NCBI GenBank assembly: GCA_035274845.1
Contig: DATENU010000009.1
Coordinates: 186,001-250,000, forward strand
Source of the DNA: Chthoniobacterales bacterium
GTDB lineage: Bacteria > Verrucomicrobiota > Verrucomicrobiia > Chthoniobacterales > UBA10450
Reading direction: 5' to 3'
Length of the DNA: 64,000 nucleotides
This document shows, one piece after another, positions 19,272 through 29,114 of the stretch; position 1 is the first letter of the stretch; every line of letters begins with the position of its first letter. The position numbers and the translations under genes were made by a program. Under the pieces are notes generated by a model. The model had not been told where the DNA came from, made no database searches, and worked only from the letters and a program-made list of their open reading frames with translations.

Positions 19272-19431
19272 ATGCGCTTTCGTCTCTTCGATCTCAATGA
19301 TGCCCAGCGCGACGCCGTCACCACGATCGACGGGCCGCTCCTGATCCTCGCCGGCGCCGGCACCGGCAAGACCCGCGTCATCACCGCCCGCGCCGCTTAC
19401 CTTATCGCGCAGGGAGTCGATCCCGGCGCCG
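19272..19431 (+). pseudogene. Duplicated 5' end of the uvrD-type helicase gene
   Basis: 160 bases encoding [16 protein letters not shown] through the Walker [10 protein letters not shown] to GVDPGA, a near-identical copy of 20898-21060. Beyond 19431 the frame runs into unrelated sequence and stops at 19565. It marks the left edge of a ~1.47-kb insert; the right edge is the intact helicase start. Confidence 0.88.
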
Positions 19432-19651
19432 AAATTTTCTTTTTTCGCGTTCGGAGATGTCTATCCTCGCCACCGCCGGCGCGTACTCACGCGAATGGAG
19501 AAACGGTCTGCGACAGGTGCCGCAGCACGCGAAAAGTCTTGCAGCCCATGCGCGCGGCTTCGTAAGATGACGGCGACGTGAGTTCCTCCCATCACATCTC
19601 CATTCCGAGCAGCCATGATGTATCAGGGACTCGCTCAGAAGAAGAGAAGTA
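19432..19651. other. Left part of the AT-rich insert
   Basis: No clear gene. A 37-codon frame (19457-19570, starting [14 protein letters not shown]) lacks a ribosome site or known relatives. The sequence departs sharply from the helicase repeat at 19431. Confidence 0.4.
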
Positions 19652-20897: not shown

Positions 20898-22907
20898 ATG
20901 GCGCGCTTCCGTCTCTTCGATCTCAATGACGCCCAGCGCGACGCCGTCACCACCATCGACGGGCCGCTCCTGATCCTCGCCGGCGCCGGCACCGGCAAGA
21001 CCCGCGTGATCACCGCCCGCGCCGCTTACCTCATCGCGCAGGGAGTCGATCCCGGCGCCGTTCTCGCGGTCACCTTTACGAACAAAGCCGCCACCGAGAT
21101 GCGCGAACGCCTCGCCCGGATGGTCGACCCCGCCGCGGCGAAGCAGGTCACGATGTCCACCTTTCACGCCCTCTGCCTCCGTATCCTGCGCAGCGGCATC
21201 GCCCGCCTCGGTTACAAAAACAACTTCAGCATTTACGACGAAGGCGATCAGCTCGGCCTGGTCAAAAAGCTGATCACCCGCACCGCCGCGCGCGACGAGA
21301 AACTGGATCCGAACATCGCGAAGGCCATGATCAGCAAGGTCAAGAACTCGTCGATGCAGGACGCGCTCGGCGACACCCTCATCGGCGAAGTGGCCCGCCG
21401 TTACGACGCCGAATTGAAACGCGTGAATGCCGTCGATTTCGACGATCTCCTTTTGCTCGCGGTGCGTCTGCTCCGCGACCACGAGGAAGTCCGCGCCCGC
21501 TGGCGCGCAAAATTTCGTTATCTCATGATCGACGAGTTCCAGGACACGAACCGCCTCCAACTCGATCTCGTCACTCTGCTGGCCGACGAACGGCGAAATG
21601 TCGCGGTCGTGGGCGACGACGACCAGTCGATCTACGGCTGGCGCGGCGCCGAAGTCTCGAACATTCTCGAGTTCGAGCGACACTTCCCGAACCCGAAAGT
21701 CGTCAAGCTCGAGCAAAATTACCGGAGTACGAACGCGATCCTCGGCAGCGCGAACTCGCTCATCAGGAATAATCCGCGCCGCCGCCCAAAGAAACTTTGG
21801 AGCGCGAGCGAAAGCGGCGGCCAGGTCCGGCTCATCGCCTGCCCGACCGATCGCGAGGAAGCGCAGTTCGTCGCCGAAGAAATTCAGCGCCGCAATTTCA
21901 GCGAGTCCGACACCTGGGAAGGTTTCGCCGTTCTCTTTCGGATGAACGCGCAATCGCGTTTGCTCGAGGAAAACTTCCGTCGCCTCCAGATCCCGTATCG
22001 GATTGTGGGCGGGAAGAGCTTCTTCGACCGGCGCGAAGTGAAAGACGTTCTCGCCTACATGAGCGTGGTCGCCAATCCCAACGACGACGCCAGCCTGCTC
22101 CGCATCATCAACACGCCCGCGCGCGGCATCAGCCCGGCGACCGTCGAGACCGCGCTCGAGTCGAGCGTGAAACACCGCCGCAGCGTCTGGCAGGCGTTGC
22201 AGTCAGGCGAGGTGCGCGGCGACCTGAGCGCGAAGACCGCCGCGAACGTCGCGCGGTTTGTCCAATTGATCGACGATTGCCAGACCTCGCTCGCGCAACC
22301 GCGCGCCGACGCCGCCGGTTTGATTCGCAGGCTGCTCGACGAAGTCGGTTACGCCGCCGAACTGCGCCGCAACTGCAAGTCGCCCGACGAAGCCGACATC
22401 CGGGAAAACAACGTGGCCGACGTCCTCCGCGACCTCGAGCAATTCACCCGGCGCTCTACCAAGGGCTTGCGCGGTTTTCTCGATGAAGTCGTCCTGGACC
22501 AGGAGCGGGAAGAAGAAAAAGAGGACGACCTCGACAAAAAACGCGGTGTCACCCTGATCACCATGCACGCCGCCAAAGGCCTCGAGTTCCCGCACGTCTA
22601 CGTCGTGGGCCTGGAGGAAGGAATTCTGCCCCACGACCGCTCCAAAGCCGAAGGCACCCTCGACGAAGAACGCCGTCTCCTCTACGTCGCCATCACCCGC
22701 GCCATGCGCTCCCTCACCCTGACCCATTGCCACTTCCGAACGAAGTTCGGCAGCGCCGTTTCCTGCCAGCCCAGCTCCTTCCTCAAAGAACTCGCCCCCG
22801 AGTTCCTCGACCACGTAAACCTCCAAAAACTCCTCAGCGCCCCCGTTGCTCAACTCACCGCCAAAAGTCGTTTCGCGCAAATGCGCGCCGCCCTTGAGTC
22901 TCCTTGA
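20898..22907 (+). CDS. uvrD: UvrD/PcrA/Rep-type superfamily 1A DNA helicase
   Basis: 669 residues carrying the SF1A motif set: Walker [11 protein letters not shown] (27-36), Ia FTNKAATEM, II DEFQDTN (~210), III GDDDQSIYGWRGAE, IV LEQNYRST, V VTLITMHAAKGLEFP and VI VAITRAMRSL. The enzyme unwinds DNA 3' to 5' in repair and replication restart. Length and the lack of a C-terminal extension are closest to Rep (~670), whereas UvrD and PcrA are usually longer; the symbol stands for the group. ATG 20898. A copy of its first 160 bases lies 1.63 kb upstream. Confidence 0.93.
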   Translation: MARFRLFDLNDAQRDAVTTIDGPLLILAGAGTGKTRVITARAAYLIAQGVDPGAVLAVTFTNKAATEMRERLARMVDPAAAKQVTMSTFHALCLRILRSGIARLGYKNNFSIYDEGDQLGLVKKLITRTAARDEKLDPNIAKAMISKVKNSSMQDALGDTLIGEVARRYDAELKRVNAVDFDDLLLLAVRLLRDHEEVRARWRAKFRYLMIDEFQDTNRLQLDLVTLLADERRNVAVVGDDDQSIYGWRGAEVSNILEFERHFPNPKVVKLEQNYRSTNAILGSANSLIRNNPRRRPKKLWSASESGGQVRLIACPTDREEAQFVAEEIQRRNFSESDTWEGFAVLFRMNAQSRLLEENFRRLQIPYRIVGGKSFFDRREVKDVLAYMSVVANPNDDASLLRIINTPARGISPATVETALESSVKHRRSVWQALQSGEVRGDLSAKTAANVARFVQLIDDCQTSLAQPRADAAGLIRRLLDEVGYAAELRRNCKSPDEADIRENNVADVLRDLEQFTRRSTKGLRGFLDEVVLDQEREEEKEDDLDKKRGVTLITMHAAKGLEFPHVYVVGLEEGILPHDRSKAEGTLDEERRLLYVAITRAMRSLTLTHCHFRTKFGSAVSCQPSSFLKELAPEFLDHVNLQKLLSAPVAQLTAKSRFAQMRAALESP

Positions 22908-23034: not shown

Positions 23035-24339
23035 ATGAGTTCACAAAGTGATTCTCCCCAACTTATCTCGTTTCATAAGGTCGGCGAAAACCGCGGTAGT
23101 CCACGTCTTTGGCTGGAATCTCGTCGACTCGAAACATTAGGGTTTTCGGCGGGCACCGCCTTTGTCATCGAACCTCGCACGCGCGGCGTGTGCCTGCGAA
23201 CATCACAAGAGGGCACGCATCACGTCGCACAACGTCGGGCAGCCGGCGGTGTGCGCCCCATTATCGATGTCGTGAATCGATCGCTGCTCGCGTCACTCGC
23301 AAGATGGGGAGAAGTGAAAATCGCTGGGGCAACCGGGCTCATTAATGTCACGCCGTCCGTCCGCGCGTTTACAATCCACCGACAATGCAGCTCAATCGCA
23401 CCATGGCGGACGTTGGAGGTCTTTGCCGGCGGCGGTACGCTCTCAGCCGCAATCGGAGCGCATCGGGACTTTCGCCTCGTGGCAGGGGTCGAAATCGAGC
23501 CTCGCTTCGCGGATGTCTGGCAGGCTTCGCATCGCGACGCGTTGCTCATTCAAGCCGACGTGCGACGGATTCATCCGAGGGAGTATCCCGCGCACGAGGT
23601 CCTCGTGGCCGCGATCCCTTGCACGAGCCATTCGCCGCTCGGGCGCGCAAAGAAATCGCTCGGGCAAAAGCCTGAGCTTGGCGATACAGGCGACCTCTTC
23701 TTGTGCATCGCCGCACTTGTCGCGACGCACCTTCCGCTCGCGTGCGTATTCGAGAACGTGCCGTCATTTGGTTCTTCCCTAGCGGGCCAAACACTGGCAC
23801 ATCATCTCCAACAGCTCGGCTACCACATCACCCAAACCATTCTTGATCCCCACAAGGAATGGGCGGAACCACAAGATCGACGGCGCTGGCTGATGGTGGC
23901 GACGTTGGTTCCAGACTTCACACTTCAGCCACCAAACGTTCCGTTCGATCAGGATCTTTCCGATATCCTTGATCCACCGAGTGAATGCGATCGCGGCGAG
24001 GCTGAGAGGATTGCCGGAAGCATTGCCGCTCTCCGCCGTCATCGTGAACGGCACCGTGCCCTCGGACACGGATTTGGTTTTACGACAATCACCGCTCAGT
24101 CATCGCGCGTACCGACTATCGTTCGATCCTACCACAAGATTAACGTCGGCCCCTTTGTTGAGACGGCGTTCGGTCCGCGTCTTCTCCGTAAACACGAAGT
24201 CGAGAAATTAATGGGCTGCACAATCGCGTGCGAGCACTACGCAACTGCGATCGAGATTCTCGGCCAAGGGGTGCAAACGCGAGTGTTCAGCGAGGTGCTC
24301 ACCCAACTTGCCGCATTTCTACGTACCGTCCGGCGCTAA
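23035..24339 (+). CDS. C5 cytosine DNA methyltransferase with N-terminal AbrB/SymE-like region
   Basis: 434 residues. Residues ~12-56 (GSPRLWLESRRLETLGFSAG) resemble the SymE/AbrB swapped-hairpin fold, and ~72-108 (RPIIDVVNRSLLASL) may be a second copy. The methyltransferase domain starts at ~124: motif I LEVFAGGGTLSAAIG (127-141), catalytic motif IV AIPCTSHS with C196, motif VI FENVPSF (239-245), motif VIII QDRRRWLMVA and a late motif IX/X region. The IPCTSHS form is that of phage- and plasmid-borne C5 enzymes rather than the usual GPPCQ. ATG 23035. Its stop overlaps, on the other strand, the stop of a DUF2075 nuclease-helicase gene, suggesting a functional pair. Confidence 0.9.
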   Translation: MSSQSDSPQLISFHKVGENRGSPRLWLESRRLETLGFSAGTAFVIEPRTRGVCLRTSQEGTHHVAQRRAAGGVRPIIDVVNRSLLASLARWGEVKIAGATGLINVTPSVRAFTIHRQCSSIAPWRTLEVFAGGGTLSAAIGAHRDFRLVAGVEIEPRFADVWQASHRDALLIQADVRRIHPREYPAHEVLVAAIPCTSHSPLGRAKKSLGQKPELGDTGDLFLCIAALVATHLPLACVFENVPSFGSSLAGQTLAHHLQQLGYHITQTILDPHKEWAEPQDRRRWLMVATLVPDFTLQPPNVPFDQDLSDILDPPSECDRGEAERIAGSIAALRRHRERHRALGHGFGFTTITAQSSRVPTIVRSYHKINVGPFVETAFGPRLLRKHEVEKLMGCTIACEHYATAIEILGQGVQTRVFSEVLTQLAAFLRTVRR

Positions 24340-26402
24340 ACTCGTGTGGCGCCGCATTTCACTAGAAAATTCGCCGTTGAATCAAACACGACGGGCTCGC
24401 GCGTTTGATCACGTTCGTCACCGCGTGGCACGAAGATCACAACGCCGATCCGGCCACGCGTCAACAGGACGCGATACTTGTTCCGTGCGAACTCCTGCTT
24501 CTCTTGCAACTTCTCAAAATACCAGCGCGGTGGTTTACGCGCAGGTGTTCGAACGCGGCGAGATTCCCAGTTTGCCCCGCCAGGCCTCACGACAAAATCC
24601 CCGCCCCAACAAATACCGCACCAATCAAGTTCCAACCCCTGACACTCGAACTCCGTCGCTGAAACTTCAAGCTGGCTTGAACTGCGGATGTCGCCGACTG
24701 GGCGGAGAAACCAATCCGGCCAGTTGACGCCGCCTCGGAAACCTGGCGACACTTCGATGCCATCCGCGCGGAGGCGCAAGGCCCCGGAGCTTGCGAGCAA
24801 CCCTGCCCGTAGATCTTCTCCTGCATACTTGCGGAGGAGATCCTTCGCCGTCGACAGGTCCCGCGTAATCCAAATCGGATACTCGCCGAGTGTCTCTGCG
24901 ACTGTGCGCGCTTCGTCCACGTTGCCGGCAATGACGAGGTTCACCCACTCCGCATATTTTTCTGCCCGGTAGCTGCGCTTTGCGATAGCGAGATGCAATG
25001 CGGGTTTTTCGGTCGCAGACGAGGGCATTTGCCCCTCAGCAAAAAGCCGCACTCTCGCAGCGGCACCCTCAACACCGAGCGCCTCAGGCGGCAGCCACAC
25101 CTTCCAGTTCGTTGAGCGACGGGCGAGGGCCTGGCCCCATTCGGCAAGTCCTGCTTCGCCATCATGAATCTCTTGGCCGCTGCCGACGAGCGCGACAACC
25201 ATGCACCAATCGCATCTTTCCATGAGGGCCAACAATAAATCCGGCTCGGATTCGCCGTGCCCCAGAACCTCTTCAACCTGCTCCTTGCTTAGGTTGCGAC
25301 GCCGTTGCCGTTTCGCTAAACCATCGCGAAGCTTCTTTGCGCTCCATACCCTCTGCGCTTCGTCGAAGACGACGACGTTGTAGGGAGGCGCGGACCCACT
25401 CGCAGTGAGCGTTGCCAGTGCGAAATCGTGAACATTTTTCACAGGCGTGCTCGCATCATGAGCGACCTCGCGCCGCATCTTCGCACCTTTTGTGCGATTC
25501 ATTACCAGAGCGGCTTGGAGCACATCGAGTAATGGCTGATTCCCGCTCGCGAAGCACACTGGGCCGCCCGCGCTTTCAATCATTTCTTGCCGATATGCAG
25601 CGTTTAGCCCCACTAATGTTTTTCCGGCGCCCGGCACACCGGTGACGAAGCAAATTATCCGCACGTTTTCCTCTCGCGCGGTCTTAACAGCCTCGTGCAA
25701 GCACTCGAGCGCGATGTCCGTGTTGTCGGCGTGAGCGTGGCTGATCTCCCGCACATCGTGGCCCTCGAAAAGCCGGCGCGCGCATTCGACAACGGATGGA
25801 GTTGGAGCGGAAACCGAAGCGTCCCAACGCGGAGCGTCGAAGCTCCAACGACCTTTTTCCCTGAGTGCGAGAATAGCTAAATCGATTGCGGGTACGAGTG
25901 TCGCGGCACCACAGCAAACCGTGTCCAGAATCACCCCGCATCGATCGCCGAATTTCAAAGGCGAATTAGCGACAAGGCGAGGTGCATTCGTTGCAACAAG
26001 GATCGGCGCAATCGGCACTCCGCGACTCTCTCGGTGGAAATCGCGCAGGTTCCAGCAGTACTCTTGAAGTTGCCAACGATCCGCGCTCTCAAAAGCATCA
26101 GCGCCAACTTTGAATTCGATGGCGACAAGGCCGGCGTCGGTCAGGAGGACGCAATCGAGACGTTTGCGGCGCCCGGCAATCTCGTATTCGAGCAAAACGC
26201 TCCATTTTTCGGCGTTCATTTGCGTGAGGCCGAGAGTTCGCAAAGCCGACTGCAAGCACGTCCACTGTTCGAGCCACGCTTCGTGCTGGTCTGGCTTCAA
26301 CTCGAAGCCTGCTGCTGCTGCGCCGCCAGTCAGCTTCAACATCCCAGCGTCAACCGGCGTCTGGAAAAACTCAGCGACGGTCGCCCGGAAGAAAGCTGGC
26401 AT
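24336..26402 (-). CDS. DUF2075 P-loop helicase-like protein with N-terminal PD-(D/E)XK-like nuclease domain
   Basis: 688 residues. The N-terminal part contains RLDCVLLTDAGLVAIEFKVG (81-100), where D83 and E96-x-K98 form a PD-(D/E)XK-like site. A P-loop follows, GVPGAGKT at 255-262, with Walker B VVFDEAQR (344-351), motif V-like ATEFECQGLELDW and a C-terminal NKYRVLLTRGR motif VI. DUF2075 proteins are Schlafen-like/SF1 helicases of unknown role, frequent in defence islands (family knowledge). The XRE gene ends 6 bases upstream on the same strand. Together with the convergent methyltransferase it looks like a restriction-type or anti-phage module; that is inference. Confidence 0.85.
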   Translation of the reverse strand: MPAFFRATVAEFFQTPVDAGMLKLTGGAAAAGFELKPDQHEAWLEQWTCLQSALRTLGLTQMNAEKWSVLLEYEIAGRRKRLDCVLLTDAGLVAIEFKVGADAFESADRWQLQEYCWNLRDFHRESRGVPIAPILVATNAPRLVANSPLKFGDRCGVILDTVCCGAATLVPAIDLAILALREKGRWSFDAPRWDASVSAPTPSVVECARRLFEGHDVREISHAHADNTDIALECLHEAVKTAREENVRIICFVTGVPGAGKTLVGLNAAYRQEMIESAGGPVCFASGNQPLLDVLQAALVMNRTKGAKMRREVAHDASTPVKNVHDFALATLTASGSAPPYNVVVFDEAQRVWSAKKLRDGLAKRQRRRNLSKEQVEEVLGHGESEPDLLLALMERCDWCMVVALVGSGQEIHDGEAGLAEWGQALARRSTNWKVWLPPEALGVEGAAARVRLFAEGQMPSSATEKPALHLAIAKRSYRAEKYAEWVNLVIAGNVDEARTVAETLGEYPIWITRDLSTAKDLLRKYAGEDLRAGLLASSGALRLRADGIEVSPGFRGGVNWPDWFLRPVGDIRSSSQLEVSATEFECQGLELDWCGICWGGDFVVRPGGANWESRRVRTPARKPPRWYFEKLQEKQEFARNKYRVLLTRGRIGVVIFVPRGDERDQTREPVVFDSTANFLVKCGATRV

Positions 26403-26408
26403 CGTCGT

Positions 26409-26651
26409 TCACTTCTCGATCCCGAGCAGCCACTCGACAGGAACGCCCAGGGCCTTCGACAGAGCTTTCAATTCGTAGTCGAGAACACTCCGAATGCCCG
26501 ATTCAATCTTTGATACTCCCGCGCGATCAATCGTTACCCCCAAGGCAGCGAGTTGTCCCGACAGCTCGTCCTGCGTTAGGGAAGGCTTTCGCTTGGCGCG
26601 GGCATCACGGACGCGATCGCCAATAATGTTCAGCGGCTTCGGTGCAGACAT
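26409..26651 (-). CDS. XRE-family regulator of the DUF2075 module
   Basis: 80 residues from ATG 26651: an Xre helix-turn-helix (IGDRVRDARAKRKPSLTQDE, LAALGVTIDRAGVSKIESG) with the C-terminal VPVEWLLG typical of small phage/RM controller proteins. The helicase-nuclease gene begins 6 bases after its stop. A perfect dyad 38 bases upstream (26689-26705) is the likely binding site, giving autoregulated expression as for C-proteins of restriction systems. Confidence 0.85.
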   Translation of the reverse strand: MSAPKPLNIIGDRVRDARAKRKPSLTQDELSGQLAALGVTIDRAGVSKIESGIRSVLDYELKALSKALGVPVEWLLGIEK

Positions 26652-26688
26652 CTTGCCGCGGAAGCTACCAGGCCTGCCAAGCACGCCG

Positions 26689-26705
26689 TGTTCTAGTTTA
26701 GAACA
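26689..26705. promoter_or_regulatory. Perfect inverted repeat, probable operator of the XRE-DUF2075 operon
   Basis: TGTTCTA-GTT-TAGAACA has 7-bp perfect arms and a 3-bp centre. It lies just upstream of the XRE start, in a position suited to repression or activation. The minus strand has TAAACT-type promoter-like sequence within it. Confidence 0.6.
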
Positions 26706-26965
26706 TCGCTATTACACGCCAAAGAGCCGGGCAGGGTTTGGCAACCTAAGTTTGAGCGCGGTGTCGCGTGTGATCGGCTCGTCACGCGAACGGTGCGCGA
26801 AGCTTACTGGCGCGTGGTGCGGATTTGGGAATGTCAGCTCAGCGCAAAGAAGGCAGAGCGAACAATTGGTCGAATCGAGCGAGCATTATGCATAATGCTC
26901 CCCAAAAGCGGAAACATGAAGCTAGCGGCCCGAAAGCGCCGCGGTTAGCGTTTAGACGCCCTGCT

Positions 26966-27183
26966 TCAACGGCGAAGGCGTTCCTTCAGTTGATCAATCG
27001 TGGAAAATTGCACTTCACCGGCCTCAACCTTCGCCTCCCGGGCGGCGAGAACTTGAACATGCCACACGGCGATTCGATCTTCTCCGGATCTTTTGAAAGC
27101 GAGGCCCACAGCCACTCCATCGCTTCGAGCCGTTCTGCCGTGCTCAGCCGCGATCCTTCCTCTTTCAGTTCAAGCACGCTCAC
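26966..27183 (-). pseudogene. Frameshifted addiction-module antitoxin (TIGR02574 type)
   Basis: The N-terminal frame (GTG 27183) reads LSTAERLEAMEWLWASLSKD, like the intact antitoxin at 28905-29114. At the codons for SP(A)WHV one base is missing, after which the other frame continues with VLAAREAKVEAGEVQFSTID and LKERLRR to a stop at 26966-26968. So this is a paralogue inactivated by a 1-bp deletion (or a sequencing error). No RelE/ParE toxin gene accompanies it. The ~260 bases to its left (26706-26965) hold nothing I recognise. Confidence 0.75.
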
Positions 27184-28856: not shown

Positions 28857-28904
28857 TGAGTGACGTGTGACAATTGAAGAGAGCGCACTCATTGACAACC
28901 TGCT

Positions 28905-29114
28905 TCAACGGCGAAGGCGTTTCTTTAGTTGGTCGATCGTGAGAAATTGTGCTTCGCCCGCGTCCACCTTCGCCTGGCGTCCAGCGAGGACCCTAACGTG
29001 CCATGCCGGTGATTCAACCTGCGTGGGATCTTTGGACAGGGCCGCCCAAAGCAATTCCATCGCTTCCAAGCGCTCTGGAGTGCTGAGGCGGAACACCTCC
29101 GTTTTCAGATTCAC
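28905..29114 (-). CDS. Addiction-module component (TIGR02574-type antitoxin), 69 residues
   Basis: The sequence FRLSTPERLEAMELLWAALS, then a central AWHVRVLAGRQAKVDAGE and a basic C-terminus LTIDQLKKRLRR, is the standard small antitoxin of RelE/ParE pairs. Here the usual toxin gene is missing. Instead it follows hicB by 2 bases, making a third gene of a hicA-hicB operon. A frameshifted paralogue lies at 26966-27183. Confidence 0.82.
   Translation of the reverse strand: MNLKTEVFRLSTPERLEAMELLWAALSKDPTQVESPAWHVRVLAGRQAKVDAGEAQFLTIDQLKKRLRR

Follow-up and report, generated by a model that had tools for sequence, protein, structure and literature searches.

The locus lies in the 64,000-nucleotide stretch analyzed here (the window), which belongs to a verrucomicrobial genome of 4.54 Mb. 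It comprises a cytosine DNA methyltransferase gene (MT), a convergently transcribed nuclease-helicase gene (S41), and a small XRE-type controller gene (XRE) that is preceded by a palindromic operator and a promoter-like box (Table 1). The stop codons of MT and S41 overlap by 4 bases (24336-24339). With its longest start, a GTG at 26684, the XRE reading frame would span 26409-26684 on the minus strand; because homologues begin at the ATG at 26651, this codon is probably the start. The three genes, the overlapping stops, and the perfect dyad described in an earlier sequence-only reading of this DNA were all confirmed, and the residues that it had pointed out, namely motifs IV (C196), VI, and VIII of MT and the E96-x-K98, Walker A, and DEAQ motifs of S41, were all present. 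The GC content at third codon positions was 0.60-0.64 in the trio and 0.75-0.83 in korA, korB, lysR, and uvrD; given this lower value, the codon pattern of the trio looks foreign, and the three genes look as if they had been acquired together.

Table 1 Features of the MT-S41-XRE locus, with positions in the window.
Feature	Position	Strand	Basis or remark
MT, C5 cytosine DNA methyltransferase, 434 aa	23035..24339	+	Pfam, predicted fold
S41, predicted N-terminal Cas4/RecB-like PD-(D/E)XK nuclease + SF1 helicase (SLFN-g3/DUF2075), 688 aa	24336..26402	-	
XRE controller, 80 aa from ATG 26651	26409..26651	-	HTH_3 E=3.1e-7
Predicted operator dyad TGTTCTAAACTAGAACA	26689..26705	-	sole genome copy; kept ahead of XRE genes elsewhere
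CTGGTAGCTT box, extended -10-like, putative promoter	26662..26671	-	17 nt past operator

S41 covered the PADLOC model PDC-S41 from end to end (residues 2-687 against model positions 3-652 of 657, E=2.6e-192) and matched Pfam PF09848 (SLFN-g3, formerly DUF2075) with E=7.6e-62 and 210 bits, the cut-off being 24. Across 60 homologues from many phyla, residues E72, D83, E96, K98, Q111, and Y115 were invariant, and so were the Walker A motif (residues 255-262), the DEAQR motif (DEAQ at 347-350), GxGQEI, QGLE, and R649. The arrangement E..D..ExK..QxxxY is characteristic of Cas4/RecB nucleases; matches to Cas4 itself were weak. Judged by these residues, the predicted nuclease site is of the Cas4/RecB-type PD-(D/E)XK class. 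E96 and K98, the two positions named in the earlier description of the site, were upheld, but that list was incomplete, as E72, D83, Q111, and Y115 complete the site. The AlphaFold model of S41 (pLDDT 90.3) found its best Foldseek matches in RecD, SLFN11/SLFN14, and Dna2 with low global TM scores of ~0.3, so the structural match concerns the helicase fold and not the whole chain. The nuclease-helicase identity proposed earlier was thus borne out as a Cas4/RecB-like nuclease and an SF1 helicase. In a FastTree tree, the S41 of the window was placed on a long branch, yet it has kept all catalytic residues.

The distribution of S41 is patchy (31 of 388 sampled members of the phylum), the housekeeping neighbours of its loci vary, and the gene also occurs on a few plasmids. 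These features, together with the dedicated controller and the location in a hotspot described below, make it highly improbable that S41 is a DNA-repair helicase-nuclease instead of a defence gene, a role that the resemblance of its fold to RecD and Dna2 would suit. The match to PDC-S41 agrees with the defence membership suggested from the sequence, and S41 is likely an anti-phage defence gene. The PADLOC candidate families, PDC-S41 among them, have been called unpublished (PMC11811056); since PDC-S41 is such a family, the defence role is one that we infer, and our literature search found no paper naming PDC-S41 or pairing DUF2075 with 'defence'. Assignment to the Schlafen RNases was rejected, as S41 has no RNase core (AlbA_2) and Pfam recognizes the helicase part alone. 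A scan of viral sequences with the single S41 protein gave no match and one with the S41 profile gave 2 viral loci; a prophage origin was not supported, there being no S41 PHROG. At a further locus (L113, 5711-18494), S41 was observed beside DISARM-like genes, with a C5 methyltransferase upstream and a DrmMI-like protein probably directly downstream.

MT is a C5 cytosine DNA methyltransferase, as indicated by its match to Pfam DNA_methylase (E=5.6e-22), the motifs P195-C196 (IV), E240-N241-V242 (VI), and Q280-x-R282-x-R284 (VIII), and the M.HhaI-like fold of its AlphaFold model (pLDDT 83.8). The catalytic domain (residues ~124-430) follows an N-terminal domain (~9-107) that was modeled as two beta-beta-alpha-beta-beta units in tandem. 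Pfam gave no SymE or AbrB match in MT itself; in the N-termini of three relatives, SymE was matched with E=5e-4 to 1e-3, under the curated cut-off. The modeled domain is likely a SymE/AbrB-like reader; the AbrB/SymE-like part of the earlier proposal is probable, but it forms the N-terminal domain and not a C-terminal tail. Relatives of MT were found on conjugative plasmids (1229 records, 992 of them covered over at least 80%, with ~23-30% identity), and the similarity spans the full length, N-terminal domain included. Some phage enzymes are also related to MT; a viral scan with the single MT protein gave no match. The cytosine methyltransferase encoded by the plasmid pKAZ3, which is not an established relative of MT, guards against EcoRII (PMC11602122).

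Of about 95 collected loci, 12 had an XRE gene directly upstream of S41 and on the same strand, as had 3 of 28 further loci; within the clade of the window, the XRE proteins show 40-72% identity. The operator, TGTTCTA-N3-TAGAACA, is a perfect dyad situated ~37 bp before the XRE start. It is unique in the 4.54-Mb genome, and no second copy was found there, ahead of MT or elsewhere; for want of such a copy, control of MT through the XRE operator was not supported. Exact copies were present in 4 of 335 genomes of the class, a number that by itself differs little from what chance would give for a 14-base pattern in that much DNA; the operator was judged meaningful because every copy precedes a related XRE gene. 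Three of these genomes, that of the window, G674, and G608, carry it at XRE-S41 loci; in G608, XRE and S41 are both damaged. At the fourth locus (L268), an HNH gene and NgoMIV (E=2e-102) lie behind the XRE gene, amid fragments of C5 methyltransferases. Searching with the XRE protein gave four loci (L290-L293) in which XRE is placed directly ahead of an SRA-HNH-like nuclease, identified by weak matches in the PDB to the SRA domains of SUVH and to the HNH part of IscB, as well as another HNH gene behind an XRE gene; related dyads were found in these cases. A CTG(G/T)TA(G/A)(C/T)(C/T)T box was found 16-18 nt past the dyad at nine loci with differing effectors, including L110, L111, L112, L115, L218, L269, L291, and L293. 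From these arrangements, we infer that the promoter is autoregulated by XRE and that XRE, operator, and box form a control cassette that is mobile and resembles the C proteins of restriction systems (PMC12707154). As the same XRE family serves S41, HNH, SRA-HNH, and HNH/NgoMIV loci, it appears to behave like an exchangeable restriction controller, and its presence at SRA-HNH, HNH, and NgoMIV restriction loci fits the earlier remark that XRE controllers time restriction. Elsewhere in the window, near the duplicated start of the uvrD-like gene described below, positions 19592-19615 resemble the 3' end of XRE (26409-26432; 88% over 24 nt), possibly a remnant of a second controller.

Whether MT belongs with XRE and S41 was assessed at the other S41 loci. 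The whole trio was repeated in the same orientation at a distant locus (L111; Verrucomicrobia subdivision 3, UBA7542), with identities to the window of 62% for MT, 66% for XRE, and ~41% for S41. Restriction genes usually diverge faster than their methyltransferases, and S41 diverges faster than MT. C5 methyltransferases of other subfamilies converge on the 3' end of S41 at L104, L112 (a C-terminal part at a contig end), L183, and L269. In the flanks of the first 80 loci (1.12 Mb), 4 of 5 C5 methyltransferases were positioned within 1.5 kb downstream of S41, an excess with P ~4e-4 under an even spread; this value is approximate, since evenness does not hold in defence islands. This excess at the convergent slot hints at a functional tie with S41, and apart from C5 methyltransferases and XRE no recurrent neighbours of S41 were found. 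At L268, moreover, an XRE of the same family and the same operator stand ahead of the HNH gene and NgoMIV, with C5 methyltransferase fragments alongside. Such evidence would suit a restriction-modification-like trio in which MT marks self DNA, S41 attacks unmarked DNA, and XRE, as the C protein, holds S41 back until the DNA is fully methylated, a reading that we regard as possible though somewhat unlikely.

Against it stands the absence of MT from the sister locus L115, from L110 and L217, and from nearly all other S41 loci. A truncated C5 methyltransferase (5' part) meets the 3' end of S41, preceded by a second XRE gene, at L104 (3310-3800), L183 (6681-7336), and L269 (5767-6170); at L104 and L183 the adjacent S41 is intact, an arrangement not easily squared with a classical restriction enzyme, which would depend on its methyltransferase. 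Most relatives are metagenome assemblies, in which faulty assembly may account for truncated genes and for contig ends, and the genome samples are small. Also at odds with a restriction-modification trio, no operator copy precedes MT, and S41 was absent near genes of the MT subfamily in the four conjugative-plasmid neighbourhoods examined. A new type of C-controlled restriction-modification, in which S41 would restrict and the plasmid-type MT with its SymE/AbrB-like reader would modify, both being exchangeable behind a controller and operator common to SRA-HNH and NgoMIV nucleases, seems rather unlikely. Since the methyltransferase is missing from most S41 loci and broken beside an intact S41 at L104 and L183, the conserved unit was set at XRE-S41: by this comparison of loci, XRE and S41 are a conserved two-gene unit and MT is an occasional partner. 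The proposal of a three-gene system thus held in part, as the exact trio exists in one distant genome; as a fixed trio it did not, since most S41 loci are without MT. The outcomes that the earlier reading had named as refuting it were not seen, as a conserved neighbourhood does occur in other genomes and S41 is not always found elsewhere.

Downstream of korB, each member of the genus has different DNA. In relatives, the 3' side of korB carries Hachiman (L092) or NsnAB (L096) and, in a genome of another genus, a split S41 (L075); with such varied cargo that includes defence genes, this side of korB is a defence hotspot. Changing cargo of this kind, and the plasmid/phage type of the MT subfamily, could be taken to mean that MT and XRE-S41 are unrelated passengers brought together by chance. 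We consider this improbable, because L111 has, in the same place, an MT of a subfamily found in 1 of 388 sampled members of the phylum (the window's own genome), and because the codon composition is common to the trio.

A duplication of the korB 3' end that would bound an island was not found in this window. In relatives, korB is adjoined by copies of part of its 3' end (L075 1897-2374; G005:C1:389022-389207; G001:C43:12666-12851), as if elements insert there repeatedly. A 1.5-kb segment with a membrane-protein reading frame is flanked by two copies (97%; 19274-19431 and 20903-21060) of the initial 158 bp of the upstream uvrD-like gene, an arrangement suggestive of an insertion or a duplication. 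Degenerate direct repeats were also observed at 26955-27168 and 28894-29108; one of them contains an Unstab_antitox-like reading frame (26986-27183), and similar sequence is present downstream of korB in L096.

The explanation that we favour, and hold to be fairly probable, is that S41 is a nuclease-helicase defence gene that works on its own under the control of XRE and is located in a defence hotspot, with MT as a facultative companion. An XRE dimer would bind the 17-bp operator and autoregulate the XRE-S41 transcript. This would hold S41 at a low level once the cell is settled and postpone it after transfer, as C proteins do with restriction enzymes. As its fold and invariant residues suggest, S41 would load onto phage or plasmid DNA and translocate like RecD or Dna2, and its Cas4/RecB-type nuclease would cut the strands. 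Targets would probably be chosen through DNA structure or replication state and not through missing methylation, and S41 would have no need of MT. The methyltransferase, a facultative partner of plasmid/phage type, would methylate its own sites and may shelter local DNA from other restriction enzymes, possibly also from S41.

The PDC-S41 candidate gains an anatomy that can be tested: its nuclease and helicase sites are complete, it has a controller of its own, and the operator is defined. That one XRE-operator-promoter cassette stands ahead of nucleases unrelated to one another points to restriction control as a mobile module in itself; searches for the operator could therefore reveal new defence nucleases. 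The locus also raises the question of whether a nuclease-helicase can take the restricting role in a restriction-modification pair.

Among known systems, PDC-S41 of PADLOC is a single-gene model that the S41 of the window matches whole; the window and many relatives differ from it in adding a dedicated XRE gene with an operator and sometimes a convergent C5 methyltransferase. Nhi likewise unites nuclease and helicase in one polypeptide and acts on phage DNA (PMC12904381). S41 shares this single-chain design, but membership of Nhi was not supported, the match to the PADLOC Nhi model being only 12.7 bits over 19 residues. The plasmid and phage C5 methyltransferases resemble MT over the full length, whereas MT of the window is chromosomal, is paired with S41, and shares only the low identity given above. 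In the SRA-HNH nucleases, which are of the modified-DNA-dependent type, the same XRE family and a related operator are found directly upstream, and the nuclease is unrelated to S41. Type II systems with C proteins have a small XRE gene that is co-directional with the nuclease and has its own operator at the promoter (PMC12707154). The window appears similar, with XRE directly upstream of S41, its own predicted operator, and a C5 methyltransferase alongside; it differs in that one dyad is seen and not two sites, that the nuclease is a helicase fusion, and that a cognate methyltransferase is not consistently present or intact across S41 loci.
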